Shown in pieces: positions 3,231-20,645 of a stretch of DNA of 64,000 bases. The DNA is from Heterostelium album PN500. Lineage: Eukaryota; Evosea; Eumycetozoa; Acytosteliales; Acytosteliaceae. Below the pieces are notes generated by a model. It worked only from the letters and a program-made list of their open reading frames with translations, was not told the origin of the DNA and did not search any database. Position 1 is the stretch's first letter, and every line of letters begins with the position of its first letter. A program made the translations under genes and the position numbers. The stretch is taken from contig NW_008805103.1 in the NCBI RefSeq assembly GCF_000004825.1, positions 495,941 through 559,940 on the forward strand, read 5' to 3'.

Positions 3231-5208
3231 ATGATGTCTGAAGGTGATGATGGCTCTGATCCAATCTCTGAAGCAGTTGGGTAAGATTATTATTTGAATT
3301 ACATACATTACATAGCATAACGATTAGTTCAAAGATATTAACATTCTATTTCTTATTAAATTTGTAGATTCATTGAGAATATTTTACAACCAAATATAGA
3401 TCTTCAATATCAGGGTCTAAAAGGTTTAATGCTTTGTTCAACTACTCATGTAGTTGAATTATTTAAGAATCCATCATTTTTCTATCATATAAAGAGACAT
3501 CCAAACCATAAATTAAATCATATCTCCTCTCATGGACACCATCACCAATCATCACCTATTCCAACTGGCAATGCTGCCAATCCAGGATCCAATAATTCAT
3601 CTCCATCTTCTTCACCCTCCTCATCACCCACCAACAGCCTAATAGAACCATGTAACCAATCACCTTCCAAATACTCTGACATTGACTATGATAAATACTC
3701 AAAGAAGAGAAAAAGTACACTCAAAAGTCTGATTGAACTATGTCTCTCTGAAACCAAAAAAGTTCAATCCTCTGCACTTAGATTACTTTGGCATCTATCA
3801 GCACAAGGTAGGTTATATTATTTTATTTATCTAGTGAGTTGTGAACTATAGTTTTATTAACCTTTGTTTTTTTAGCTGATTTGAAAGTATTATTATATGA
3901 AGAAGGTGTTTTGGATAAACTAAAGTATTTGATATCAAGTGATTCCCAAGCGCCAAAGGATGATATAGAGAGTAGACAGAATGGAATACACAGAACTGAG
4001 GTACAGCTGGCTTCATCAGCAATTCTACAGAATATTACAGAGTATAGATTCGAGAGAGGCGAGATCAATCCCAATCAAGTGAAGATCGTCAATGAGGGAA
4101 TCGTAGAGATGATTCTACTGCCAAGATCAAAGAGTACCGATCGTAGGGTACAATTCCTTACCACCCTCACAATTGCCAACCTCTCAATGAATGAAGAGAA
4201 CCATCAAATCCTACAGAGTCACAAAGCATTCGATATTGTCGAATCGTTTGTCACCAACAACAGTCTGCATATGGATTTGGTTTGTCATTGGATCACACTG
4301 CAACCTCACATCCCTTTGCTTCATTCAAAATATTCACAAGTGCAATTGTTTGCTCTTTATTGTTTATATAATTTAATGAGAAATGGTAAATAACAGTGTT
4401 TTATTATTAACTATCTATATTTCTATCAAGTTACTTACCAACTATGTTTTAAATTGATATAGATCAATATAAAGTCGAAGTTTGGAAAGGTTTAAGTGTC
4501 AATAATGGTGTTCAATCAATTTTCTTATTGTTACATTCTCCACATCCAAAAGTAGTTGAATTGGCAAAGAAGATCGCTGAACAACTACAGATTGAAGAGC
4601 CATCAGTCACTGTAAATACCACCAAGATCGGCACCGATCTCAAGAAGCTTTTCAATAACTCTGACTTTTCAGATATTTGTTTTGTCTGCGAAGGCAAGAA
4701 GATCTACGCTCACAAGGCTATCTGTGCTTCGCGATGTGAACAACTGCGTGCAATGTTCACATGGGGCAAAGAGTCACAGGAGAATGAAATTCACTTGCCT
4801 CACATTCCCTATGCATCGATGTACGGTGTCTTGGAGTATATTTACTGTGGAGTGGCATCGATCACCTGGGACAACGCGTGTGACTTGCTGCAGTGGGCCG
4901 ACTTCTTCTCGTTGAGCGGTCTCAAGAGCACCTGTGAATTCTTCCTATGGCACTACATTGATTTGGAGAATGCACCGATCATCCTGTCGGTCGCTGACAA
5001 CTACGGTTGCACACAGCTACGAAATGTCACTGCTAACTTTGTCGTGAGAAACTGGGAGAAGATCAAAGACACTGAGAATTGGGTTAACCTTACATCACAA
5101 GATTTAAAAAACTATATCAATGCTAAAATTTATACACTAATAACTTGTTCATGTGGCTGTTTTTGTAGTTGTATAGATGAAGAAAATAGAAGATCCGAAG
5201 ACATCTAA
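3231..5208 (+). CDS. Armadillo-repeat and BTB/POZ domain protein
   Basis: Four exons join in frame to 581 residues: 3231-3280, 3368-3807, 3876-4385 and 4463-5208. All introns have GT...AG ends. The first ATG (two in a row) follows a long AT-rich leader. Residues about 1-385 are helical with ARM-like repeats (for example RRVQFLTTLTIANLSMNEEN and LFALYCLYNLMRN), interrupted by a His/Asn/Ser/Pro-rich linker near residue 60-110. Residues about 395-500 form a BTB domain (DFSDICFVCEGKKIYAHKAI), followed by a BACK-like helical segment. ARM-BTB proteins usually act as dimeric cullin-3 adaptors or transcription cofactors; the specific role is not determinable here. The C-terminus is Cys-rich (ITCSCGCFCSC), which is odd for the family. 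Confidence 0.85.
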
Positions 5209-5701
5209 ATATTGCTAATTCAAATTGAACCAATTAAAATAAATGTTACATTTACATATAAATTTTAAACACACAACAAAAAAAACTAATATATATGTAC
5301 TTAGTTTAGTTAAGCGGTATTACTTTGTTGTTGTAAAAATAAGTGTGGAAAAGGTGATCAAAGGAATAGAAGATTAAATTTTGTTTTATTTTTTTTTTTG
5401 TAATTTTGATCAAAATTGGCCGACTTGTTGCATGATTTCATACTCTATTATGTTGTTATAATTTTATACATATCAAAAAAAAAGAGAAAGAACAGTTATC
5501 AATAACGGATAGATGAAGTTCTTCACTCCAGCTTGGATTTGAACAGAGGTGGTACTGAATTTCAGATCCCTGAATTGTTAACAATTTGAATTTACAGTGA
5601 ATTGTTTTATACTAAATAATAGATAGGTGAACGTGCATGTTGTATTTTTTATAGCATTGGAACAGATAATATAGATAGCATTGGAACAGAGATCATTGGA
5701 A
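5209..5701. other. Intergenic, short direct repeat
   Basis: AT-rich spacer between the ARM/BTB gene and the duplicated unit. A 16-base direct repeat (atagcattggaacaga) occurs at 5651-5666 and 5675-5690, just left of where homology between the two duplicated units begins. No gene is supported. Confidence 0.45.
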
Positions 5702-5965
5702 GTGTAAAGCATTTCTCTTATTATGTATTAAACTTTATCTTTTTGGTTTAAAAATTTATTTAAATAGGTTGTTTTTGTCAGTTTAATAACATTAAAAACT
5801 TTGGTGGGTTAGATATGTGTTTTTTCATTTAGTTTGTTTTTTTTTTTGTGTTGTTTAAAACATTTTTAACAAATGAATTAATTACAAACAATTTAATCAT
5901 ACATTTACTTTTATTTAAATAATAATTTGTTGCAAATAGTAAGTTAAGATTTATTGTTAGTTAAA

Positions 5966-8556
5966 ATGTTCTCATCAGAATCAGGTAAGTAAAATTAGGA
6001 TTTATTTTTAAATCTCATTTTTAATTATTTAATCCATTTGGTAGGCTCAAATATTTGTTCATTATGCTCTAAGGCATTGGAATGTGGAGAAAAAAGGTAC
6101 AGGTGTTCAGAATGTAGAGATATAAAGTTTTGTGAGGAATGTTATCACTCTCCAAAATCAAATGAATGTCATACTGATAAAGCTATCTTACCTCATCAAT
6201 GTACAATTGAGACAAGTATATTTAAATCCTAAATTCAATGAGATAATTACTCTTTTCTGAAATAATAATAATTTTTTAATTTGAACATAGAAACTGATAG
6301 CGAATATATAGAATCCAATCAATCTGACAGATTTTATCAATGTTTTGTGAATGCATTCAATAGTTTTTCTCACAGGAATTGTATTGGTGTAAGACCTGTT
6401 GCAAATGAGCCAACTGTAAATTGGTTGACATTTAAAGATGTTTATCAAAATTCTGAAATGTTTGGATCTGCTTTAAAAATAAATGTTAAAGTAAATATTA
6501 AAAATATCTTATGTCTTTATTTTTAATTATTAATATTCTAATTTTAATTATTACAGTATGAATCAAGAGTTGGAATAATGCTCAATAATGTTCCTGAATG
6601 GTATTTCGTAGAATTTGGATGTCTATTTTATGGATACACTCTTATTCCTATCAATCATTATATCAGTATGTTCAGTTAAAAATATTGTTTTATTTAATTT
6701 GATTACTAATTAATAATAAAATTACAGATAATGATCAATTATTGAATATCCTTAAGATTGGAGAACCATCAGTTCTTGTGGTTTCAAAGATAACATTTCC
6801 AAAATTACTAAATGTGATAGACAACTATTCAAATTTAACATTGATCATACATGTTGGTGATGATTATGATCAAAATTTGAAAAATCAACTTCCACAACAA
6901 ATCAAATTCAAATTATATTCTGAATTCTTATCTACTGTTTCTGAAATTGCTCCACATTCACCATTGATCAATGGTATTTTATCAATTGGTAAGGATAATT
7001 TGTGTTATAATTATATTTATAAGTTTTATTTTATTTTATTACCGAATTAATAATATATAATATATATATTAAAAAATTAATATAAATAATTTAAAAATAA
7101 TATATTATCATTTATTAAAAAAGTATTTTCAACTGGTAGTACTGGTGTTCCAAAAGGAGAGATGTGCAAAGATAGAGATACTACCAATTGTTTAAAAACC
7201 TTTTCTTCAACGAAAATAATCCCTATTTCTATCAGTTATCTTTCTCTTTGTAAGTTAGAATCTGTTTTATTTCATGATTAAATTGAGAAATATAACTAAT
7301 CATTTAAAATAGCTCATACTCAAAGGCTAATGGATTTAACTAGCATATTTCTTGGAGGTAGATTCATAATTTACTCATTTGGTACAGAGATAGAACCATT
7401 TATTAAAGAGTGTTCAATGGTTAGACCAACAATTTTCTGGAATTTCCCAACGTAATTAAAATTAATGTTTTTTATTATCTTATTTTTATTAATTAATATT
7501 CAAAATAGATTTTATAATCAAATATATTCAAAGTATCAAAGAAGATTAGAAATACTAAAGAAAGAACAACCAAATCTTTCAGATGATGAAGTTGATTCAA
7601 TAGCAATTAGAGAAACAACAAATGTTTTTGGAGATAGAATTCAACTTATAACAACAGGAGGTGCTAAAATAGCTCCAAATATTGAAATATTTTTGAAGAA
7701 ATGTTGGGGAAATCGCTTTTTTATCCAGTATGCTTGTACTGAATCATATGCTATTTCATATAATGGTAGAATTAAAAGTGATGTGGAATATAAAATCAAT
7801 GCAATACCTGGTTTCAGAGATGACAGTCCATTTCCAGTTGGTGAATTAATTGTCAAATCACCAAGAACTATTGAAGGTTATATCAACAAAGATGATTCAA
7901 ATGAAAAGAATTTCAGAAATGGATGGTTTGCCACTGGTGATATCGTTGAAGAATATGAACCTGGATACATTAGAATCCTTGAGAGAGTTAGTTTCTCTTT
8001 CAAATCATCATTTGGAAGATTTATATCGTAAGTTTTCTTTTTTTATTACAATTTTAAAGAATATTTATTATTAATTTTAAAACCTTGATACAGACCCGAA
8101 AACATTGAATCAAATTTTTATTCATCATCTTTGATTAGAAATATATTCATTTATGGAACATCATTACATCCATTTTTGGTTGGAATAGTTGTACCTTCTC
8201 AATTGGCTTTGGAGAGATTCAATCTAACATATGATCAATCAAATATTGATCAACATCAAGATCTGAAAGAATCTATCATCAATGAAATAAATATCATATC
8301 AAAACAAAAGAATGTAAGTAAAATTAATAAAACAACCAGGATTTAACTTTTTTTTCTAATTTTCTAATATATTTAATAGATTATATTTTGGGAAATTCCA
8401 AAGGCAATAAAATTGGATAATACCATTTGGACTGTTTATAATCATCTTTTAAATGGATCTTTCAAATTCGATCGAAAAGAGATCACAAAATACTATCAAG
8501 AATCTTTGGATCAATTATTATCAGGTATAAATGAAAATGGTAGTTCATTCTTCTAA
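5966..8556 (+). CDS. ZZ zinc finger - long-chain acyl-CoA synthetase fusion, copy A
   Basis: Ten exons give 646 residues: 5966-5984, 6045-6215, 6291-6490, 6557-6665, 6728-6988, 7124-7249, 7313-7451, 7509-8027, 8094-8313 and 8380-8556. Residues about 7-55 form a ZZ-type zinc finger (CSLC, RYRCSEC, FCEEC, then His/Cys ligands). The rest is an AMP-forming ACSL-type ligase that would activate long-chain fatty acids with ATP and CoA. It has the nucleotide loop STGSTGVPKG near 256, GWFATGD near 484, the ACSL-like C-domain (FISPENIE, FLVGIVVPS) and the lysine region NGSFKFDRKEITKYY near 616. The usual YGxTE adenine-site motif reads YACTES in this copy, while copy B keeps YGCTES, so copy A may be impaired. 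Start chosen by the shared leader and splice phase. Confidence 0.85.
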
Positions 8557-8992
8557 ATCAATCAACTTTTCTAAAATCTATCAGTCGTTGAAAATCTGTT
8601 CCTAAGAGTAAGAAATTTTTCAATATTGGATAGACCATTTCGATCTGATGTAGTTAAGTTAAATAAATATACAAGAGTTATCTTTTTTATCATATCAATT
8701 GATAACTAAAAATAAAATATTGTTTTTTAATTCATTTTATTTTTTTAAAAATAAATATTTTATTTTTTTTTGATTGTTCTCTCAAAAATTTTTTTTTTTT
8801 AATTTTTATTTTTTATTTGCTTTTTTTTTTTTTGTATTTGTTTATCTGTAGACACCTTTATGTTAATCTGTTATCAAAGCTTTTTAACAGCAGGCCCGAG
8901 ATCTGTATAGCGGTTTGAGGCTTACCTGCTGACGGAGCTTTGTTAGTTGTATATCGATTAGCACACTACTCCTTTTTTAAGCATTGTGAACA
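8557..8992. other. Spacer after acyl-CoA synthetase copy A
   Basis: T-rich spacer with runs of 8-13 T. From about 8850 composition changes abruptly to a balanced, GC-containing segment that holds the inverted-repeat element described separately and runs into the ATG of the decayed exonuclease gene at 8993. No gene of its own is supported. Confidence 0.5.
8876..8941. other. GC-rich nested inverted repeat, unit A
   Basis: AAAGCT at 8876-8881 pairs with AGCTTT at 8936-8941. Nested inside, CAGCAGG at 8888-8894 pairs with CCTGCTG at 8925-8931. The loop contains GGTTTGAGG, loosely like a pol III B box. The identical element recurs at 14959-15024 in unit B. It could be the 5' UTR hairpin of the exonuclease gene, a small RNA gene, or the end of an old mobile element; the sequence does not decide. 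Confidence 0.45.
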
Positions 8993-10568
8993 ATGAACGA
9001 ATATAGATGTCCTAGCAGAGAAGACTGGGTTAAACTTGCAAATATATTTAGTTTAGAGTATGAGAGTTGTAGTATTAATGAAAACAAGGATTATAAAAAG
9101 TTAATGCATAAGTTTTCAGAAGATTCTCCTGCTATTAGATATTCAAAACAGTTAATATCGATCCAAACAATATTCTTAAATGTCTTAAACTACCTAAAAC
9201 TCAATCATTATTAATGCTAATTGTAAGTATGCCTTTTAATCTATATCTATTATATTTTTATTAATTTTTTTTTAAAAAAAAAAATAGAAAAAGCCTAATG
9301 ATCAAATCTTCTGTGTCCCTACGAAGATGCCTCATTTATGGAGTTGTACAAGAAATCGTTAAATGCAGATTGTTTCTATCGTTACCCAAAGGAACAAAAA
9401 GAAACTACTTGCTTTGGAGATTGTAATGTTCAAGCTACACCAGAGGTATTGGAAAAGTGTCATGAATATCGAGCTTTATAGTGAACGAGAAGTCAGTATT
9501 TTTAAGAAAATCTACTCAGACTCACAACAAGCAATTGAATCGTTGGATATCGTTGATGCATCAGTTGATGAGGATGATGGCGATGATGACGAGCTGGACG
9601 CCGACGACCTTTTAGTGGATCTAGACACTGGAGATCTCGTCGGCACTGCCATACAGCAGTCAGACAAGCCATCGATTCACAGCCAAAGTTTTGGTTTCAC
9701 TTCCGAAATGTCTCTTGATGAAAAGTACAAAACTATCACTCGTATATTCTACCTGCGAAGAGTACTCTGTATCCGCCAATTGTCATGCTACAAAGACTCC
9801 ATTAGAGCCAAGAAGGATATATTCTTTAATATATGTCCAAATGATGGATGCCAACAAGTTTTTGCGCAGGCTGCCGCTTACAATGCTCACAAAAACACCG
9901 CTCACGCTATCCACTCAGAAGTAGATCCTTCAAAATTTGAATGGGTTATCAAACAGAAGAATGGGTTTATGGCTAAGTTCATTGCCTTGCCAACTAGCAG
10001 ACCTCTTCTACGATCTCCTCTCGATGAAAGTGAAAACCCGGCAGTAATTTTGTTGTTGGATACCGAGACCACTGGCAAATCTACATTGACATTGAGATTA
10101 CCATTGTTAACATATCCAATGGTGATACCTTTTACCAAAGAATCAATCCTACCATAGTTATAGACAAAGAAGCATCAAACGTACATAGTATGACGAATCA
10201 ATCTTTAGCTGGACATCAATATTGGAACGCAATAGAGCCTTCCCTAGTCAGTTTCTTTCAACAGTATGGTCAGAGACCTATCTATATCACTGTGAAAAGT
10301 TTGATCGAGGCATTCGAGCTACACAAATATATAATCAGGTGAGGCTGCAGCCGAATCTTTTTCAAATATATATTTTGTTGACTCAATAGCCATTATCAAA
10401 CGATTTTTCCCAACGATAGAAAGAGGTTATTCCATCGACAATCTATTGAAGGATTTTGCTATTCCAATGGATAATCCAGCCATGAGACATACTAGTTGCA
10501 AAGACATATTATCCCTTACTAAGATTCTATCACATGTATATGATAATCAATCTCTTTATTATTGTTAA
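8993..10568 (+). pseudogene. Decayed C2H2 zinc finger / DEDDh 3'-5' exonuclease gene, copy A
   Basis: Coding-like segments lie in alternating frames. They are: an N-terminal piece from ATG 8993; a frame change near 9150; a probable intron starting at about 9224 (GTAAGT); an acidic stretch (about 9550-9620); and a C2H2 finger (CPNDGC, 12 residues, H-x4-H) near 9835-9905. Then comes exonuclease motif Exo I as DTETTG at 10059-10076, a frameshift right after it, a stretch like INPTIVID...VHSMTNQSL, an in-frame TGA near 10340, and a last segment with an Exo III-like HTSCKD before the stop at 10568. The family (DnaQ/DEDDh) removes 3' nucleotides from DNA or RNA. Several frame breaks argue for a pseudogene. 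Unit B repeats several of these breaks but not all can be compared, because part is deleted there. Confidence 0.6.
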
Positions 10569-10694
10569 ATAAAAAAATAAAAAATCCAACCACTCAAATT
10601 TTATATTTTTCTTCTGTTTTTCGATGGAATGAAACAAATAGTAAAAACAAATGTTTGTAAATATCGATATAGAAGCAGAGTAATTTAATCAACA

Positions 10695-10919
10695 ATGACA
10701 GACATAGATAGTAGTAGATGTAGTATTCACAAAGATGAATTGTATAAACTGATTTGTATTGAATGTAATGTGTTGCTGTGTTCGGTTTGTTCAGTAGATC
10801 ATAATGGTCATATTTACAATCATATTCACAATCTAAAGAATAGTGATGATAATTCCAATGTATTTAAATCGAGAATCGATACATTATTGAATGTGATTAT
10901 ATTTATTAATTTTAATTAA
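10695..10919 (+). pseudogene. Truncated B-box zinc finger gene, copy A
   Basis: The first 63 residues match the B-box protein at 16192 residue for residue (CSIHKDELYKLICIECN, CSVCSVDHNGHIYNHIH). At about 10883 the match stops, the frame runs into unrelated AT-rich sequence, and it ends at 74 residues. It has kept the whole upstream region of the intact gene, so it could be transcribed, but it lacks the coiled coil and C-terminal domain. This is the right breakpoint of duplicated unit A. Confidence 0.8.
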
Positions 10920-11795
10920 CTTTTTTTTCATTGTTCTTCATAGAAATAGAAATTATCCCAAAAGGATCACTTAGCATATGTGTATAATTATAATAAATTA
11001 TTTCTAATATATAAATCAAGCTTTTAAACCAATATAATATAATTGTTTTTTTTTTTGTAATTTTGAATGCGAAATTTTGTAAACACCTCCTGTTGTTCAC
11101 AAAAACAGAAATCAATAGATCAAGAAACTAAAAAATTTACTTATTCAGGTATAATACTCTGTAGATTAAATTTATTTTAATTTATTAACTAATCTTTAAC
11201 CTCAAAAATCAAATTTTTTTAATCTATTTAAAATAATAATCCTCATCATTGAATACACACTTCTTGTTATCATTTTCTTTGGTAGACTCTGGTTGCTCCA
11301 ACTTAAACTTAAACATATAGTTTTCCATCTTTTAAAAAAAAATCATAACTAGAATAATATATTATATTCTGTACAAGTAAATATTAAAAAAACAAAAAAG
11401 CAAAAAAAAAAATTGTGGAACTGTCAAATTTTTAGATTATAGATATCTAATACCTTTCATAATGGCGGACCATCTTCTCTTCTTGATTTCAATGTTCAGA
11501 GGGTGGAGGACACAGACATAACGAAAGACAACATTGCTTCTATAGCTATTTATGATATGAAAGATTGTGAGACAATAAATAAACAAATTTGTCAATTTAA
11601 TTTAATTTAAATATGTTTAACTGTTTTTCTCATTTAAATCAATCAATCAAATCACCTTTAATGAAACTTGTCCATATCTCATACTGGTGGTAGAATATAA
11701 TGATATTTAATGAACATAAATTTTTGAAAAAAAAATGACCATGTCTCATTTTAAAAAATGAAAAAAAAGCAATTCACGCATCCCCTCACTTTGAT
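10920..11795. other. Unique spacer between duplicated units
   Basis: This stretch has no counterpart in the two units, although a simple tandem duplication would have none here. It is AT-rich and holds two short open stretches that look more protein-like than chance. One is 34 codons on the minus strand (11328-11224). The other is about 55 codons on the plus strand (11443-11610), which follows an acceptor-like tttttag. Neither matches a family I recognise; both may be debris of genes. Confidence 0.45.
11443..11610 (+). pseudogene. Possible coding fragment, unrecognised
   Basis: An open stretch without its own ATG reads FHNGGPSSLLDFNVQR and then VEDTDITKDNIASIAIYD before stopping at 11608-11610. 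Base composition is clearly less AT-rich than the flanks and an acceptor-like tttttag lies just upstream. It could be a leftover exon of a gene removed when the duplication formed. Function unknown. Confidence 0.25.
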
Positions 11796-12080
11796 GTGTA
11801 TAGCATTTCGCCAATTATGAATTAAACTTTATTATAAACCTCAATAAAAAATTTATTTAAATATTATTATTTTTATCATTTTAATTACATTTAAAACTTT
11901 GGTGGGTTAGATATGTGTTTTTTTATTTTGTTTTTTTTTTGTGTTGTTTAAAACATTTTTAACATATGAATTGCAAACAATTTAATCATACATTAACTTT
12001 TATTTATTATTATTAAAATAATAATAAATAATAATAATAATTTGTTACAAATAGTAAGTTAAGATTTATTGTTAGTTAAA

Positions 12081-14629
12081 ATGTTCTCATCAGAATCAAG
12101 TAAGTAAAATTAGGATTTATTTTCAAATCTCATTTTTAATTATTTAATCCATTTGGTAGGCTCAAATATTTGTTCATTATGCTCTAAGGCATTGGAATGT
12201 GGAGAAAAAAGGTACAGGTGTTCAGAATGTAGTGATATAAAGTTTTGTGAGGAATGTTATCACTCTCCAAAATCAAATGAATGTCATACTGATAAAGCTA
12301 TCTTACCTCATCAATGTACAATTGAGACAAGTATATTTAAATCCTAAATTCAATGAGATAATTACTCTTTTCTTAAATAATCATAATTTTTTAATTTGAA
12401 CATAGAAACTGATAGTGAATATTTAGAATCCAATGAATCTGATAGATTTTATCAATGTTTTATGAATGCATTCAATAGTTTTTCTCACAGGAATTGTATT
12501 GGTGTAAGACCTGTTGCAAATGAGCCAACTGTAAATTGGTTGACATTTAAAGATGTTTATCAAAATTCTGAAATGTTTGGATCTGCTTTAAAAATGAATG
12601 TTAAAGTAAATATTAAAAATATCTTATGTCTTTATTTTTAATTATTAATATTTTATTTTAATTTTCTAAGTATGAATCAAGAGTTGGAATAATGCTTAAT
12701 AATGTTCCTGAATGGTATTTCGTAGAATTTGGATGTCTATTTTATGGATACACTCTTATTCCTATCAATCATTATATCAGTATGTTCAATTAAAAATATT
12801 GTTTTATTTAATTTGATTACTAATTAATAATAAAATTACAGATAATGATCAATTATTGAATATCCTTAAGATTGGAGAACCATCAGTTCTTGTGGTTTCA
12901 AAGATAACATTTCCAAAATTACTAAATGTGATAAACAACTATTCAAATTTAACATTGATCATACATGTTGGTGATGATTATGATCAAAATTTGAAAAATC
13001 AACTTCCACAACAAATCAAATTCAAATTATATTCTGAATTCTTATCTACTGTTTCTGAAATTGCTCCACATTCACCATTGATCAATGGTATTTTATCAAT
13101 TGGTAAGGATAGTTATAATTATATTTATAAGTTTTATTTTAAAATTCAATAATAATTAATTTAAAAATAATATATTATCATTTATTAAAAAAGTATTTTC
13201 AACTGGTAGTACTGGTGTTCCAAAAGGAGAGATGTGCAAAGATAGAGATACTACCAATTGTTTAAAAGCCTTTTCTTTATTGAAAATAAGCCTTATTTCT
13301 ATCAGTTATCTTTCTCTTTGTAAGTTAGAATCTGTTTTATTTCATGATTATATTGAGAAATATAACTAATCATTTAAAATAGCTCATACTCAAAGGCTAA
13401 TGGATTTAACTAGCATATTTCTTGGAGGTAGATTCATAATTTACTCTTTGGGTACAGAGATAGAACCATTTATTAAAGAGTGTTCAATGGTTAGACCAAC
13501 ACATTTCTGGAATTTCCCAACGTAATTAAAATTAATTTTTTTATTTTATCTTTTTTTTATTAATTAATATTTCATAATAGATTTTATAATCAAATATATT
13601 CAAAGTATCAAAGAAGATTAGAAATACTAAAGAAAGAACAACCAAATCTTTCAGATGATGAAGTTGATTCAATAGCAATTAGAGAAACAACAAATGTTTT
13701 TGGAGATAGAATTCAACACATATCAGCAGGAGGTGCTAAAATAGCTCCACATATTGAAATATTTTTGAAGAAATGTTGGGGAAATCGCTTTTTTATCCAC
13801 TATGGTTGTACTGAATCATATGGTATTGCATCTAATGGTAGAATTAAAAGTGATGTGGAATATAAAATCAATGCAATACCTGGTTTCAGAGATGACAGTC
13901 CATTTCCAGTTGGTGAATTAATTGTCAAATCACCAAGAACTATTGAAGGTTATATCAACAAAGATGGTTCAAATGAAAAGAATTTCAGAAATGGATGGTT
14001 TGCCACTGGTGATATCGTTGAAGAATATGAACCTGGATTTATTAGAATCCTTGAGAGAGTTAGTTACTCTTTCAAATCATCATTTGGAAGATTTATATCG
14101 TAAGTTTTCTTTTTTTTATTACAATTTTAAAAGAATATTAATTAATAATTTTAAAACCTTGATACAGACCCGAAATCATTGAATCAAATTTTTATTCATC
14201 ATCTTTGATTAGAAATATATTCATTTATGGAACATCATTACATCCATTTTTGGTTGGAATAGTTGTACCTTCTCAATTGGCTTTGGAGAGATTCAATCTA
14301 ACATATGATCAATCAAATATTGATCAACATCAAGATCTGAAAGAATCTATCATCAATGAAATAAATATCATATCAAAACAAAAGAATGTAAGTAAAATTA
14401 ATAAAACAACCAGGATTTAACTTTTTTTCTAATTTTCTAATATATTTAATAGATTATATTTTGGGAAATTCCAAAGGCAATAAAATTGGATAATACCATT
14501 TGGACTGTTGATAATCATCTTTTAAATGGATCTTTCAAATTCGATCGAAAAGAAATCACAAAATACTATCAAGAATCTTTGGATCAATTATTATCAGGTA
14601 TAAATGAAAATGGTAGTTCATTCTTCTAA
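12081..14629 (+). CDS. ZZ zinc finger - long-chain acyl-CoA synthetase fusion, copy B
   Basis: Ten exons with exactly the lengths of copy A give 646 residues: 12081-12099, 12160-12330, 12406-12605, 12671-12779, 12842-13102, 13194-13319, 13383-13521, 13581-14099, 14168-14387 and 14453-14629. It has the same ZZ finger and ACSL-type ligase. Compared with copy A this version is closer to the family consensus: GGAKIAPHIE and HYGCTESYG in the adenine-site region, where copy A has GGAKIAPNIE and QYACTESYA. Exon 1 ends AGTAAGT instead of GGTAAGT, changing one Gly to Ser at the junction. Likely activates long-chain fatty acids; what the N-terminal ZZ finger binds is unknown (in other families it binds histone tails or N-degrons). 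Confidence 0.87.
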
Positions 14630-15075
14630 ATCAATCAACTTTTCTAAAATCTATCAGTCGTTGAAAACCTGTTCCTTAAGAGTAAGAAATTTTTCAATAT
14701 TGGATAGACCATTTCGATATGATGTTGTTATATTAAATAAATATACAAGAGTTATCTTTTTTATCATATCAATTGATAACTAAAAATAAAATATTGTTTT
14801 TTAATTCATTTTATTTTTTTAAAAATAAATCTTTTTTTTTTTTTGATTGTTCTCTCAAAAAATATTTTTTTTTTAATTTTTATTTTTTTATTTGCTTTTT
14901 TTTTTTTGTATTTGTTTACTTAGTTTATCTGTAGACACCTTTATGTTAATCTGTTATCAAAGCTTTTTAACAGCAGGCCCGAGATCTGTATAGCGGTTTG
15001 AGGCTTACCTGCTGACGGAGCTTTGTTAGTTGTATATCGATTAGCACACTACTCCTTTTTTAAGCATTGTGAACA
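14630..15075. other. Spacer after acyl-CoA synthetase copy B
   Basis: Same T-rich spacer as in unit A, with small indels in T runs, followed by the GC-containing inverted-repeat segment. Confidence 0.5.
14959..15024. other. GC-rich nested inverted repeat, unit B
   Basis: AAAGCT at 14959-14964 pairs with AGCTTT at 15019-15024, and CAGCAGG at 14971-14977 with CCTGCTG at 15008-15014. Identical to 8876-8941. It is conserved without a single change while the neighbouring T-rich DNA has drifted, though the duplication is young so this alone proves little. Confidence 0.45.
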
Positions 15076-16071
15076 ATGAACGAATATAGATGTCCTAGCA
15101 GAGAAGACTGGGTTAAACTTGCAAATATATTTAGTTTAGAGTATGAGAGTTGTAGTATTAATGAAAACAAGGATTATAAAAGCTAATGCATAAGTTTTCA
15201 GAAGATTCTCCTGCTATTAGATATTCAAAACAGTTAATATCGATCCAAACAATATTCTTAAATGTCTTAAACTACCTAAAACTCAATCATTATTAATGAT
15301 AATTGTAAGTATGCCTTTTAATCTATATCTATTATATTTTTATTAATTTTTTTTTTAAAAAAAAAGAAAAAGCCTAATGATCAAATCATCATCCGTCGAA
15401 CTGTGTCTCTACGAAGATGCCTCATTTATGGAGTTGTACAAGAAATCGTTAAATGCAGATTGTTTCTATCGTTACCCAAAGGAACAAAAAGAAACTACTT
15501 GCTTTGGAGATTGTAATGTTCAAGCTACACCAGAGGTATTGGAAAAGTGTCATGAATATCGAGCTTTATAGTGAACGAGAAGTCAGTATTTTTAAGAAAA
15601 TCTACTCAGACTCACAACAAGCAATTGAATCGTTGGATATCGTTGATGCATCAGTTGATGAGGATGATGGCGATGATGACGAGTTGGACGCCGACGACGA
15701 TTTAGTGGATCTAAACACTGGAGATCTCGTCGACACTGCCGTACAGCAGTCAGACAAGCCATCGACTCACAGCCAAAGTTTTGGTTCACTTCCGAAATGT
15801 CTCTTGATGAAAAGTACAAAACTATCACTCGTATATTCTACCTGCGAAGAGTACTCTGTATCCGCATGCTACAAAGACTCCATTAGAGCCAAGAAGGATA
15901 TATTCTACAAAATTGGAATGGGTTATCAAACAGAAGAATGGGTTTATGGCTAAGTTCATTGCCTTGCCAACTATCAGACCTCTTCTACGATCTCCTCTCG
16001 ATGAAAGTGAAAACCCGGCAGTAATTTTGTTGTTGGATACCGAGACCACTGGCAAATTGTTAAATAAATAA
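15076..16071 (+). pseudogene. Decayed C2H2/DEDDh exonuclease gene, copy B
   Basis: Homologous to 8993-10568 but more damaged. The first segment hits a stop after NENKDYKS because of a small deletion near 15180. The C2H2 finger is removed by a deletion near 15908. The sequence stops just after the Exo I motif (DTETTGK) with the rest of the exonuclease missing. Some breaks are shared with copy A (frame change near 15230 and the stop after HEYRAL near 15570), showing the gene was probably already dead when the segment duplicated. Confidence 0.6.
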
Positions 16072-16191
16072 ATAAAAAAATCCAACCACTCAAATTTTCA
16101 TATTTTTCTTCTGTTTTTCGATGGAATGAAACAAATAGTAAAAACAAATGTTTGTAAATATCGATATAGAAGCAGAGTAATTTAATCAACA

Positions 16192-17967
16192 ATGACAGAC
16201 ATAGATAGTAGTAGATGTAGTATTCACAAAGATGAATTGTATAAACTGATTTGTATTGAATGTAATGTGTTGCTGTGTTCGGTTTGTTCAGTAGATCATA
16301 ATGGTCATATTTACAATCATATTCACAATCTAAAGAATAGTGATGATAATTCCAATGTATTTAAATCGAGAATCGATACTTTATGGTCATCGGTAAAGAC
16401 ATCGAACGACTCTATCAAAGTATTGAAAAACAATCGTACAAAGATAACCGACCACTTTCGAGAGTTACACAACATTCTAATGAAACAAGAATACACACTA
16501 CTCAAACCAATCGATGATAACATCAATTCAGTACAAAAACACATTAAAGATATGCTTAAAGAATTGAAATCAATAGTTAATATATTAAATCAAATAACTG
16601 ATAATAAAAATAATAATAGTAATAAAAGCAGCAGTAGTAGTAGTAATGATGATAACAACACAAATATTAGTACAGATTCATATAGAATTGATAATATCAT
16701 TGAAACAATCAATGAATGTGAATCATTCGATAAGTTTGTTGATATCAATAGAGTATCATTTTTCAGTTATAATAAGAATGAAAACAACTATCCACAACTA
16801 CAAGTAAACAATAGCTATACCAATCTACAATTAATACAATCATTCAATTCGAAATACCAATTATCAAATAGTAAAGGTATTCATCATAGTCCAGTTATTC
16901 CAAGTTATAAAATCAGTATTAGTCAACTTAAAATGCAGAATATAAAGAGTGATGCCGAACAATCAATTTATGTAACTGCTTCTGAGAGTACATCTACCAG
17001 TAATACTTCAACCACATCCAACAACAACAACAATAATAACAACAATAACAATAACAGTAGTAGTGATAGTAGCAGTAGTGGTAGTAATAGTAATGTTAGT
17101 AGTAATAATAATAGTGCAAGATATATTATATCGGCAGATCGTAATAATATTAGTTTGTTAAGCATTGGTGACAATGCAGAGTCGATAGTTTTAGATAGTC
17201 AATATACTCCACCATTGTCATCGACTATAGCTGGACGTTGGACACTAAATGCAATTGCTGCGACTGTCAGTGGTAAGTACGTCTACATCTTTGGCGTGTC
17301 AAGGAGTGGTACCAAGTATTTGCGATTCAGTTTGGAATCGCGAGTTTTCGATCTTGCCGAGGACATCAGTGGCATCACCACTGGCGAATGGCTATCGGTA
17401 TGCAACGATCCTTCTAATAATGGTCACATCTACATCATCAATAACTTTGATAAAGAAAAAGCAGAGATCTCAAGATACAACATTAAATCGATGAAGTTCG
17501 AGAAAATTGGAAAGCATCGTCTCAGTAGTGAGATTACTAACGATGTCATCAAATCGTTTATCTATCACGATTGTCTCTATATGGTGACATCGGTAAGCAA
17601 CCGGATCTTCAAAATCAACAACTTACCGACACACCATAAGAATCACAGTGTTAGTAATCTCGACATTCAACTGCCATTGGAGAAGTATGTCGCCGTTACA
17701 CATGACAACCAAGGTAACATCTACATCCTTACTTTTAAACGAAAGTTCCTCAGAGTAAACGTTGATAGCAAGCAGATTGCTCATCTGACACCACTTAGCA
17801 TCAGTGAATACTGTTCAATGGTATACTCTAAAGATGGACCGTATATCTACTTGTTTGGTGGCGCTGACTATGGTAACTTTGTTTACACGATCCAGAAGGA
17901 TCTATGGACACCAATCTTTAAAGATGATCAATCAAAGAGAATCAATTGTGGTTCAGTTTTAATATAA
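16192..17967 (+). CDS. B-box zinc finger protein with coiled coil and propeller-like C-terminus
   Basis: Single exon, 591 residues. Residues about 9-45 form a B-box (CSIH, CIEC, CSVC, then His ligands). A helical segment follows (about 60-135, IKVLKNNRTKITDHFRELH), probably a coiled coil. Ser/Asn-rich linkers lie near 138-155 and 262-310. The C-terminal 240 residues consist of short beta-repeat phrases (GKYVYIFGVSRSGTKYLRF, GNIYILTFKRKFLRV, GPYIYLFGGADYGNF) like kelch or related propellers. The layout resembles a TRIM protein without a RING, so ubiquitin ligase activity cannot be assumed. The start is supported by the truncated paralogue at 10695. Confidence 0.8.
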   Translation: MTDIDSSRCSIHKDELYKLICIECNVLLCSVCSVDHNGHIYNHIHNLKNSDDNSNVFKSRIDTLWSSVKTSNDSIKVLKNNRTKITDHFRELHNILMKQEYTLLKPIDDNINSVQKHIKDMLKELKSIVNILNQITDNKNNNSNKSSSSSSNDDNNTNISTDSYRIDNIIETINECESFDKFVDINRVSFFSYNKNENNYPQLQVNNSYTNLQLIQSFNSKYQLSNSKGIHHSPVIPSYKISISQLKMQNIKSDAEQSIYVTASESTSTSNTSTTSNNNNNNNNNNNNSSSDSSSSGSNSNVSSNNNSARYIISADRNNISLLSIGDNAESIVLDSQYTPPLSSTIAGRWTLNAIAATVSGKYVYIFGVSRSGTKYLRFSLESRVFDLAEDISGITTGEWLSVCNDPSNNGHIYIINNFDKEKAEISRYNIKSMKFEKIGKHRLSSEITNDVIKSFIYHDCLYMVTSVSNRIFKINNLPTHHKNHSVSNLDIQLPLEKYVAVTHDNQGNIYILTFKRKFLRVNVDSKQIAHLTPLSISEYCSMVYSKDGPYIYLFGGADYGNFVYTIQKDLWTPIFKDDQSKRINCGSVLI

Positions 17968-18053
17968 TACTTTGATTAACAAAACAACAACAAATGTAAT
18001 AATAATAATAAAATAATGTAAATTAAATATATAGATTGTTTATATACAAAATA

Positions 18054-18083
18054 TTTTAGTTTTAGTTTTAGTTTTAGTTTTAA
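18054..18083. repeat. TTTTAG hexamer array
   Basis: About five tandem copies of ttttag between the convergent B-box and dehydrogenase genes. It probably lies in a 3' UTR. Confidence 0.7.
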
Positions 18084-18139
18084 ATCTAAATTGATTGTAA
18101 TTTGAAAGTGTAATGAGTGTATATCATATCTATATTTGT

Positions 18140-19098
18140 TTAGAGTTTTGCTAATCTGAGTGCACCATCGAGTCTAATAGTACTACCGTTCAAATATTGA
18201 TTTTCAATGATATGAACAACGAGTTGTGCAAATTCATTGGTCTTACCAAAACGATTTGGGAATGGAATGGTTGAGAGAATTGCTTTGGTAGCTGCATCTG
18301 GCAGACCTGATAACATTGGTGTGTCAAATGTACCAGGAGCGATTGTCATTATTCTCATACCCAATGGTGCAAATTCTCTTGCCAATGGTAATGTCATACT
18401 GTTTGGTTTGAAGATAATGTTAGTTAGTTAGTTCGTTAGTTCTATATTTTAATAACTATCTTAATCTATCTCTATTTACTTACCCAACAACACCAGCTTT
18501 AGAAGCACTGTAAGCAGCTTGACCCTGTTGACCTTCGAATGCAGCACACGAAGCAGTCATAACGAAAACACCCTTCTCACCATCGACCATCTCTTGTTTG
18601 TCGATGACCTCTGCAACCAAACGAATTACATTGAATGTACCGGTAAGATTGATATTAATAACTCTACTATAAACATCCAATGGAATAACACCTTTCTTTG
18701 ATAGTGTCTATATATATACATATATATAATATATACCAAATCATATTATAGATAATATATTAATAAATGATTTGATTACAACTAATAATATCTGTTAAGC
18801 ATATATTACTTACTCTAATGGCAACGGCAATACCAGCACAATTGATTGCACCATGTATCTTTTTAAACTTGTTCAATGTCTCTTTGATTGCATTCTTTAC
18901 GGATGCTTCATTTGTGATATCTGTATTCTGGAAGAGTGCTCTCTCACCTCCAAGTTCCTTTACCAATTGATTTCCACTCTCATCATTCATATCAAAGATG
19001 ACAACATTTGCATTTCTTTTGTGTAGCTCTCTAACGGTAGCTTCTCCAAGACCACTGGCTCCACCAGTAACAATAAATGTTTTATTTTCTAATTTCAT
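18140..19098 (-). CDS. 3-hydroxyacyl-CoA dehydrogenase type 2 (HSD17B10-like SDR)
   Basis: Three exons on the minus strand (19098-18814, 18707-18484, 18398-18140) give 255 residues, close to human HSD17B10 at 261. It has the NAD-binding TGGASGLG at residues 11-18, the catalytic Ser near 148 in TAS, and YSASK at 161-165. The HSD17B10-specific phrases [16 protein letters not shown], [24 protein letters not shown] and [11 protein letters not shown] are all present. The family oxidises 3-hydroxyacyl-CoAs in isoleucine and fatty-acid breakdown in mitochondria and is also a subunit of metazoan mitochondrial RNase P. Start MKLENK is chosen by homology; an in-frame upstream extension would be hydrophobic and is not needed. 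Confidence 0.93.
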
Positions 19099-19542
19099 AT
19101 TAATTAATATGTTAAAAATTAAAATGATAATTAATTCAAACAAACAAAAATAATAAATAAAATAAAAAATACTATTAAATTAAGCACACACACAAAATGA
19201 TAAAAATTTTTTATTTTGATTTTATTTTTTTATCCAAAATATCTATTTTGAACTCAACAATCTGGAATTTATAAATTTAACATTTGTAAGATGTATATAG
19301 TTTTGGTAACTTTGTCACTTTTTTGAAAATCAGATATTATGATGATAAATTAGACCTGCAAAGATGTTTTAATACAACATTGATTAATGTCGCAGAAATC
19401 AAATTAAATTTTTAAGAAAGTTCAAGTTAGTTCGAACATTTAAATTGTTGGGTGGTCAAAGTTAGAAGCACACAACTTTATTAAACCAACCCAAAATTGG
19501 AAATTTTAGTTATTATTTAATAATGAATAATTTGTATAATAA
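19099..19542. promoter_or_regulatory. Divergent intergenic region
   Basis: About 440 bases between the divergent dehydrogenase and ARPC1-like genes, AT-rich with T and A runs, so both promoters must lie here. No specific element is recognised. Confidence 0.4.
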
Positions 19543-20645
19543 ATGTTTAAAATAAAGAAATTATTAAATATTAAAAATGGATATATAAGATGTTATTCTT
19601 GGAATAGTGATAGATCAAGTAAAATAAAATATTGTTTGATTCGTTTGATTGCTCAATCAATTACTTACTTTTTACTCTCTCTCTCTCTCTTTTAGAAATA
19701 GTTTTATCTTCAAATGTTAATAATAATATTTTAATATATTCATTAAATATTAATAATAATAATAATGATAATGAAGAAGATGAAGAATGGATATTAGAAT
19801 ATGAGTTATGTCAACATGATAGAATGGTAACATCATTAGATTGGTCAGAGAAAAACAATTGTATACTATCGTGTTCCGAAGACAAGTTGGCTTGCTATTG
19901 GAGATACGATCAGGCTACCCGTCGATGGCTGCCGAGGATAACGACCGTTCGTGTATCAAAGTCGTGTGAGCAACTCGCTTGGAGTCCCCTGGGAAACAAG
20001 TTTGCACTGACCACCGCTGAGAACACTCTGATGATTCTCTTTAACACCGGCGAATCCGATCATTGGCTGTCACATCGATTCGGTCCGTCCAACTCGAGAG
20101 TTCGCGCCATCGCTTGGAATCCCGTGAATAACAACATGCTGGCGTGTGGCAACGCCCGAGGTGAACTGTACATCTACAACGCCTACATCTCGACGGTCGA
20201 CCGACTACTGCCAAACAAAATCGGTAACTTCCAACTAATAACGAAAATGAGTGATTCCGCAACTGATGGTTTCATTCAATCGATTGCATGGTCGCGAGAC
20301 GGTGTATTCTTGGCATACAGTTCGCAAGCATCGAAACTAACGATAATACAGCTACTCAGTCAATATGAATTCAAGATCATCGCAACGATAAAACTACCGA
20401 CTCTGCCGATATGCGATATGATATTCAAAGATAACAGTAAAGAGTTAATCGCATTGACATTCGACTATCAATTACTTAAATTTACATACTCACCGACTAC
20501 CAATCAATGGTCTATAACTGATATCGTAGATAGCGGTGATCATCTATTTCATCCAAAGATTAGATACTATCATGAGATAGATGGTGAACAATACTATTCG
20601 ATACAATCATCGATTGATGGTTGCTTAGCAATCATTTCAATATAA
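19543..20645 (+). CDS. Divergent ARPC1-like WD40 protein (Arp2/3 complex subunit 1 family)
   Basis: Two exons (19543-19618, 19696-20645) give 341 residues. The tiny first exon encodes the start up to SWNSDRS; the splice restores CYSWNSDRSKIVLSSN, matching the ARPC1 phrase of the form CHxWNxDRTxIAxxPN. WD-type repeats follow (QHDRMVTSLDWSEKNNCILSCS, RWLPRITTVRVSKSCEQLAWSP, VRAIAWNPVNNNMLACG, YIYNAYIS). ARPC1 anchors the Arp2/3 complex that nucleates branched actin. Differences from the canonical subunit are an Asn/Glu/Asp-rich insertion after the first strand, weak C-terminal repeats and an end at LAIISI without the usual last WD unit. It may be a second, specialised ARPC1 or a neofunctionalised paralogue. 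Confidence 0.75.

Follow-up and report, generated by a model that had tools for sequence, protein, structure and literature searches.

Tandem ZZ finger-adenylation genes of Heterostelium album belong to a family with carboxylic acid reductase-like members

Introduction

ZZ-type zinc fingers, such as those of HERC2, dystrobrevin, MIB1, KCMF1 and p62, share a ligand pattern of C-x2-C, C-x2-C, C-x2-C, H and H. PMC6098011 assigns the N-degron pocket of the p62 ZZ domain to Asp129, Asn132, Asp147 and Asp149 and describes other ZZ domains as also being devoid of this pocket. Carboxylic acid reductases (CARs; model NF041592) are built of adenylation (A), carrier (T) and reductase (R) domains, and in the Neurospora crassa enzyme (NcCAR) His237 of the PxxH motif and Glu433 of the hinge are essential (PMC5826065). 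Here, two tandem genes joining a finger of the ZZ kind to an A domain are described from a 64,000-nucleotide stretch of the Heterostelium album PN500 genome (NW_008805103.1, positions 495,941 to 559,940, forward strand; hereafter the window).

In comparison with the ZZ domains listed above, the finger encoded here is joined to an adenylating enzyme and the residues used by p62 for N-degrons are mostly missing. Five paralogues from the same genome match CARs in domain order, in the GGDS and YxxxK motifs, in the A4 His and in the hinge Glu, but they carry an N-terminal ZZ finger, score below the NF041592 cut-off (full-length L044) and have an R domain that, in L044, scores higher against a polyketide-synthase-like one than against bacterial CARs. 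Neither T nor R nor the hinge Glu is present in the window genes. Two long-chain acyl-CoA synthetases (ACSLs) of this genome (L053 and L054) share the ANL adenylation domain and contain no carrier or reductase; however, they are devoid of the ZZ finger, keep a GEY hinge and lie outside the ZZ clade. Full-text searches of the literature under open licences gave no paper on a finger-adenylation fusion or on such enzymes in this amoeba; the architecture may already be recorded in automated databases.

Results

Two recently duplicated genes in the window

The exons of the window pair were placed by hand and gave the following features, all on the plus strand:

5966-8556, +: ZZ-adenylation gene, copy 1; open spliced frame of 646 aa; AMP-binding E 1.1e-35
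5966-5984, 6045-6215, 6291-6490, 6557-6665, 6728-6988, 7124-7249, 7313-7451, 7509-8027, 8094-8313, 8380-8556, +: exons of copy 1
6056-6196, +: ZZ finger of copy 1, first Cys to last His, wholly in exon 2; based on ligand invariance in 15 paralogues and the family profile against solved ZZ domains
6216-6290, +: intron directly 3' of the finger, copy 1; phase 1, 75 bp; place and phase kept in 15/15 paralogues
8014-8019, +: Gly-Arg at the A8 hinge, copy 1, from the motif alignment; Gly-Glu in the A-T-R paralogues
12081-14629, +: ZZ-adenylation gene, copy 2; open spliced frame of 646 aa; AMP-binding E 1.1e-37
12081-12099, 12160-12330, 12406-12605, 12671-12779, 12842-13102, 13194-13319, 13383-13521, 13581-14099, 14168-14387, 14453-14629, +: exons of copy 2
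12171-12311, +: ZZ finger of copy 2, first Cys to last His; same basis as for copy 1
12331-12405, +: intron directly 3' of the finger, copy 2; phase 1, 75 bp; place and phase kept in 15/15 paralogues
14086-14091, +: Gly-Arg at the A8 hinge, copy 2, from the motif alignment

No internal stops were present in either spliced protein, and the exon lengths were identical in both copies (19, 171, 200, 109, 261, 126, 139, 519, 220 and 177 bp), which confirmed the preliminary description of exons joined in frame with equal lengths, at the very coordinates given there. The two genes are recent duplicates; they differ at 37 of 1941 coding bases, and 28 amino-acid-changing and five silent codons were counted between them (dN 0.0197, dS 0.0179). 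The further argument that equal exon lengths speak for a real fusion is weak, since such lengths are expected anyway after so recent a duplication. The exon borders were supported by the distribution of indels between the copies, none of which fell within the 1941 bp of exons, with five of the nine introns (3, 5, 7, 8 and 9) being affected. Around the A5 Thr-Glu pair, both Gly residues found in copy 2 were replaced by Ala in copy 1.

A genome-wide family sharing the finger, the following intron and the A domain

The genome (32.9 Mb in 39 contigs) carries nine Dicty_spore_N matches, in keeping with a dictyostelid. Searching it with copy 1 revealed at least 16 loci with this kind of A domain preceded by finger sequence, the locus counts being lower bounds. 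The loci other than the window pair were modelled with a home-made spliced aligner; of all the models, those of the window pair and of L040-L042 alone include a start exon. Finger and A domain were both complete in 15 loci, comprising five genes with the A-T-R architecture (L044, L045, L050, L051 and L052) and 10 genes ending after the A domain (A-only), the window pair among them. The remaining locus, L039 (G000:C38:487000-491500), is another relative located upstream on the same contig; it starts inside the finger, is truncated and carries a stop, and in an alignment of 2422 bases it is 97.8% identical to copy 2.

The zinc ligands of the finger (six Cys and two His in ZZ spacing) were invariant in 15/15 fingers, with 11 invariant columns in all, and the phase-1 intron after the finger occurred at the same residue and in the same phase in every one of these genes, some of which have A domains with no more than about 34% identity to that of copy 1. 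The recurrence of the ligands and of this intron is taken to rule out a chance splice model, and the finger-adenylation fusion is strongly supported as genuine by the gene models, as had been proposed from the two copies. Among the other sequences searched, bacterial genome contigs gave two clostridial matches (24-26% identity, from poor patterns), and viral contigs gave none.

The finger matches the ZZ type at the family level

At the family level, the assignment of the finger to the ZZ type is clear from profile comparisons, whereas it is weak for the window copies taken alone. The copy 1 finger scored 12.5 bits with Pfam ZZ (cut-off 21.4) and slightly higher, 14 bits, with C1_2 (cut-off 26), and the copy 2 finger gave no match at E<=0.1. 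Among the 15 fingers, eight matched Pfam ZZ at E<=0.1 (best 1.3e-6) and six matched C1_2 (best 0.0068), and in the genome profile search two paralogues passed the ZZ cut-off with 33.3 and 27 bits. A profile of the family finger compared with solved chains matched HERC2 best (1e-5), with other ZZ domains (dystrobrevin, MIB1, KCMF1 and p62) among the matches; C2H2 finger proteins (2i13, 1e-4; 5v3g, 4.5e-4) and UBR boxes (0.003) were also matched. The N-terminal ZZ finger with paired Cys residues noticed in the preliminary description was thus borne out by the eight invariant ligands and the match to solved ZZ domains. Unlike in those domains, the sixth Cys is separated from the first His by Asn-rich insertions in L044 and L045, and in the L044 finger (L069 521-932) a long Asn/Thr-rich loop is observed there.

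The equivalents of the p62 pocket residues were kept in few fingers (Asp129 in 1/15, Asn132 in 0/15, Asp147 in 6/15 and Asp149 in 1/15), and the window copies retained one of the four, the Asp147 equivalent, with Lys at the Asp149 position. An N-degron link working in the p62 manner, as had been suggested, is therefore not supported; pocket loss counts only against this p62-like reading, because other ZZ domains lack the pocket too.

Five paralogues continue into carrier and reductase domains

In the five A-T-R genes, the A domain is followed by a carrier and then by an NAD_binding_4 reductase, the latter above the cut-off in 5/5 of them, and all five contain the carrier GGDS and the reductase YxxxK. 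Full-length L044 aligned with NF041592 over residues 55-1081 (487 bits). The window genes stop after the A domain and hence do not have the A-T-R architecture of CARs. None of the 14 NAD_binding_4 matches in the genome lay beside an A-only gene. With five T-R segments as queries, tblastn detected the A-T-R locus included as a control. It gave no remnant in window 5001-20000, in the nine loci that hold the remaining A-only copies and extend about 0.5-0.9 kb beyond them, or in two loci from the flanks of L039.

Elsewhere in the genome (L057 3-2370), an NAD_binding_4 frame of the fatty acyl-CoA reductase type has an acyltransferase-like frame, so judged by eye, a short distance behind it in the same orientation; the pair resembles a fusion present in dictyostelids.

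In the window proteins, Pfam AMP-binding was matched over most of the domain length. Among solved structures, copy 2 best matched 6oz1 (E 4e-43), which is listed as Oxidoreductase, and chains listed as carboxylic acid reductase (5msc, 1.4e-36), and copy 2 scored 211 bits with NF041592 in comparison with 121 bits for a FadD-type model.

Active-site motifs separate the A-only genes from the A-T-R genes

The motif table, like the trees and the dN/dS values, was computed on models predating the corrections of frame breaks and loops; the gene counts take these corrections into account. The A3 Lys, A5 Glu, A7 Asp, A8 Arg and A10 Lys were kept in 15/15 genes, including 10/10 of the A-only group. The hinge Glu was present in 5/5 A-T-R genes and lost in 10/10 A-only genes, being replaced by Arg in both window copies, and the A4 His was found in 5/5 and 8/10 genes, respectively. 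At the PxxH position, both window copies have the His, with the Pro replaced by Ser. All of the A-T-R genes (5/5) have the Ser of the carrier and the Tyr and Lys of the reductase, residues that are gone with their domains in the A-only genes (10/10). As judged from the predicted proteins, the window genes clearly lack the parts needed for reduction.

Phylogeny and selection

In the A-domain trees, the ZZ family formed one clade (100/99), with the A-only genes as one clade inside it (100/100), and it grouped with the A-T-R genes, apart from the two finger-less ACSLs of the genome. In the best tree the A-only genes were nested among the A-T-R genes, which favours a loss, not a gain, of T and R. 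The ACSLs, the bacterial reductases and the ZZ family split three ways. With outgroups included, a grouping of the ZZ family with the bacterial reductases was not rejected (p 0.34), whereas a grouping with the ACSL rows was (p 5e-4), although the ACSL rows did not form one group there.

Purifying selection was detected in four of the seven young A-only pairs tested (Fisher p 5e-8, 1e-12, 1e-8 and 7e-7), all of them involving L040 or L041, the L041 pairs carrying a few misaligned codons. Residues 273-430 of the young paralogues showed many amino-acid differences, and silent differences were elevated there too, as well as in the finger and in residues 481-530. Positive selection for new substrates was considered for this region and dropped because silent differences rise in the same residues 273-430; the differences suggest that gene conversion evened out other parts of the genes.

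The duplicated block and its neighbours

The two copies lie in a tandem duplication, with repeats about 6.1 kb apart:

5918-10887 (approximate), no strand: tandem duplication unit, first copy; from repeats and blastn of the flanks; extended as far as 5693 by a weaker match (83%)
12033-16384 (approximate), no strand: tandem duplication unit, second copy; from repeats and blastn; a weaker match reaches back to 11786

A downstream neighbour was duplicated with the gene (window 8990-10568 and 15076-16057), about 100 and 480 bp of it being absent from the second unit according to blastn of the flanks. Its frames are broken and contain, by eye, a stretch resembling C2H2 together with a DTETTG motif, which we take to be exonuclease-like, and no Pfam match at E<=0.01 was obtained in the two stretches of it that were scanned. 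A short frame at window 10689-10919, mostly within the duplicated block, encodes a B-box zinc finger (PF00643, E 8.8e-8), and a frame with BTB/POZ (E 1.1e-22) and BACK domains is located upstream, at window 4453-5208.

Discussion

The window pair probably belongs to a ZZ-docked family of carboxylate-activating enzymes, in which the window members would activate an acid and could not reduce it; the probability of this reading, which is based on sequence comparisons, is put at roughly 0.58. In the A-T-R members, ATP would be used to adenylate the acid, which would be loaded on a carrier of the phosphopantetheine type and then reduced to the aldehyde by an NAD(P)H thioester reductase. By analogy with ZZ domains in general, the finger may serve to dock such an enzyme to a partner protein. 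The window pair comes from the one branch that has neither T nor R and in which the hinge Glu is lost; its products probably still adenylate a carboxylic acid and hand it to CoA or another acceptor, with no aldehyde made, while being held at a site by the finger.

Several observations weigh against this reading. The NF041592 cut-off of 1300 bits was reached neither by copy 2 nor by full-length L044, and one of the finger-less ACSLs encoded in this genome attained 285 bits, so model scores cannot separate CARs from ACSLs; the NF041592 score was dropped as proof of a reductase origin, since this ACSL outscores copy 2. Pfam PP-binding was found in two of the five stretches scanned; one of the five did not extend over the site. 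The R domain of L044 scored 234 bits against that of L061 (a gene of the same genome judged by eye to be polyketide-synthase-like), 169 bits against a Nostoc non-ribosomal peptide synthetase and 71-123 bits against five bacterial CARs; because it is closer in score to the polyketide-synthase-like domain, the A-T-R protein of this family may have been built independently of bacterial CARs. The acid preceding the A8 Arg, Asp in 5/5 A-T-R genes, is Asp in three, Glu in five and Ser in two of the 10 A-only genes. The hinge Glu is missing also from the archaeal CoA ligase row of the motif table, and its loss therefore neither proves inactivity nor excludes CoA ligation. According to PMC5826065, NcCAR was still active after replacement of the A3, A5, A7 and A8 residues by Ala; the retention of these residues therefore gives no more than mild support for adenylation. 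A tree with the five A-T-R genes constrained as one clade was not rejected (approximately unbiased test, p 0.17). The comparison of copy 1 with copy 2 was neutral-like (30 N : 7 S, p 1), as were two other close A-only pairs (p 0.11 and 0.65). Finally, three of the 15 genes (L041, L049 and L051) have a frame break in the assembly; two of the breaks lie in T runs, as seen by eye, and may be assembly errors.

Some of these points would fit a catalytically dead or fading A-only branch, whose members may bind a ligand or partner through their two domains or be incipient pseudogenes. The loss of the hinge Glu throughout the branch and of the A4 His in 2/10 genes, the neutral-like divergence of the window copies, the truncation and stop of L039 and the frame breaks in two other A-only copies are consistent with such decay. 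However, 8/10 A-only genes are open in the checked models, the four pairs under purifying selection (with L040 or L041) point to constraint, and the A3, A5, A7, A8 and A10 residues are kept in 10/10 genes, even if most of them are dispensable in NcCAR according to PMC5826065. A dead branch is on balance doubtful, though slightly more probable than the other alternatives.

The preliminary description had taken the enzyme for an ACSL, and a ZZ-tagged ACSL would couple fatty-acid activation to ubiquitin or N-degron signals, perhaps on lipid droplets or phagosomes as suggested there. The extensive AMP-binding match and the conserved A5 Glu, A8 Arg and A10 Lys agree with it, and the window genes end after the A domain with no T-R remnant in window 5001-20000, for which reason CoA is the simplest remaining acceptor. 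Yet the family clusters with the A-T-R genes and not with the two finger-less ACSLs, the GEY hinge of the latter is replaced, and the p62 pocket is kept in only 1, 0, 6 and 1 of 15 fingers. As originally worded, the ACSL assignment is not supported, given five close paralogues that are A-T-R and reductase-like and an A domain forming its own clade, and the coupling to ubiquitin or N-degrons is unlikely; acyl-CoA ligase activity of the window pair as such is compatible with their sequences. It is highly improbable that the A-only members modify proteins, with an acyl-adenylate made by the A domain and the end or a side chain of a ZZ-bound protein as the acceptor, without a thioester step. The alternative in which the finger exons make up a small gene of their own, joined to the A domain by faulty modelling, can practically be dismissed: the finger-exon frame does hit a stop within 17 bases beyond the donor, so that the fusion requires splicing, but the post-finger intron recurs in place and phase in 15/15 paralogues, including those only about 34% identical in the A domain.

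Should the A-T-R members prove to be working reductases, they would be carboxylic acid reductases targeted to a protein partner by a ZZ finger, and the A-only branch would represent a natural experiment on the fate of an adenylating enzyme left without its carrier and reductase. Both the reductase reading of the A-T-R members and the readings of the A-only members are accessible to tests with recombinant proteins.

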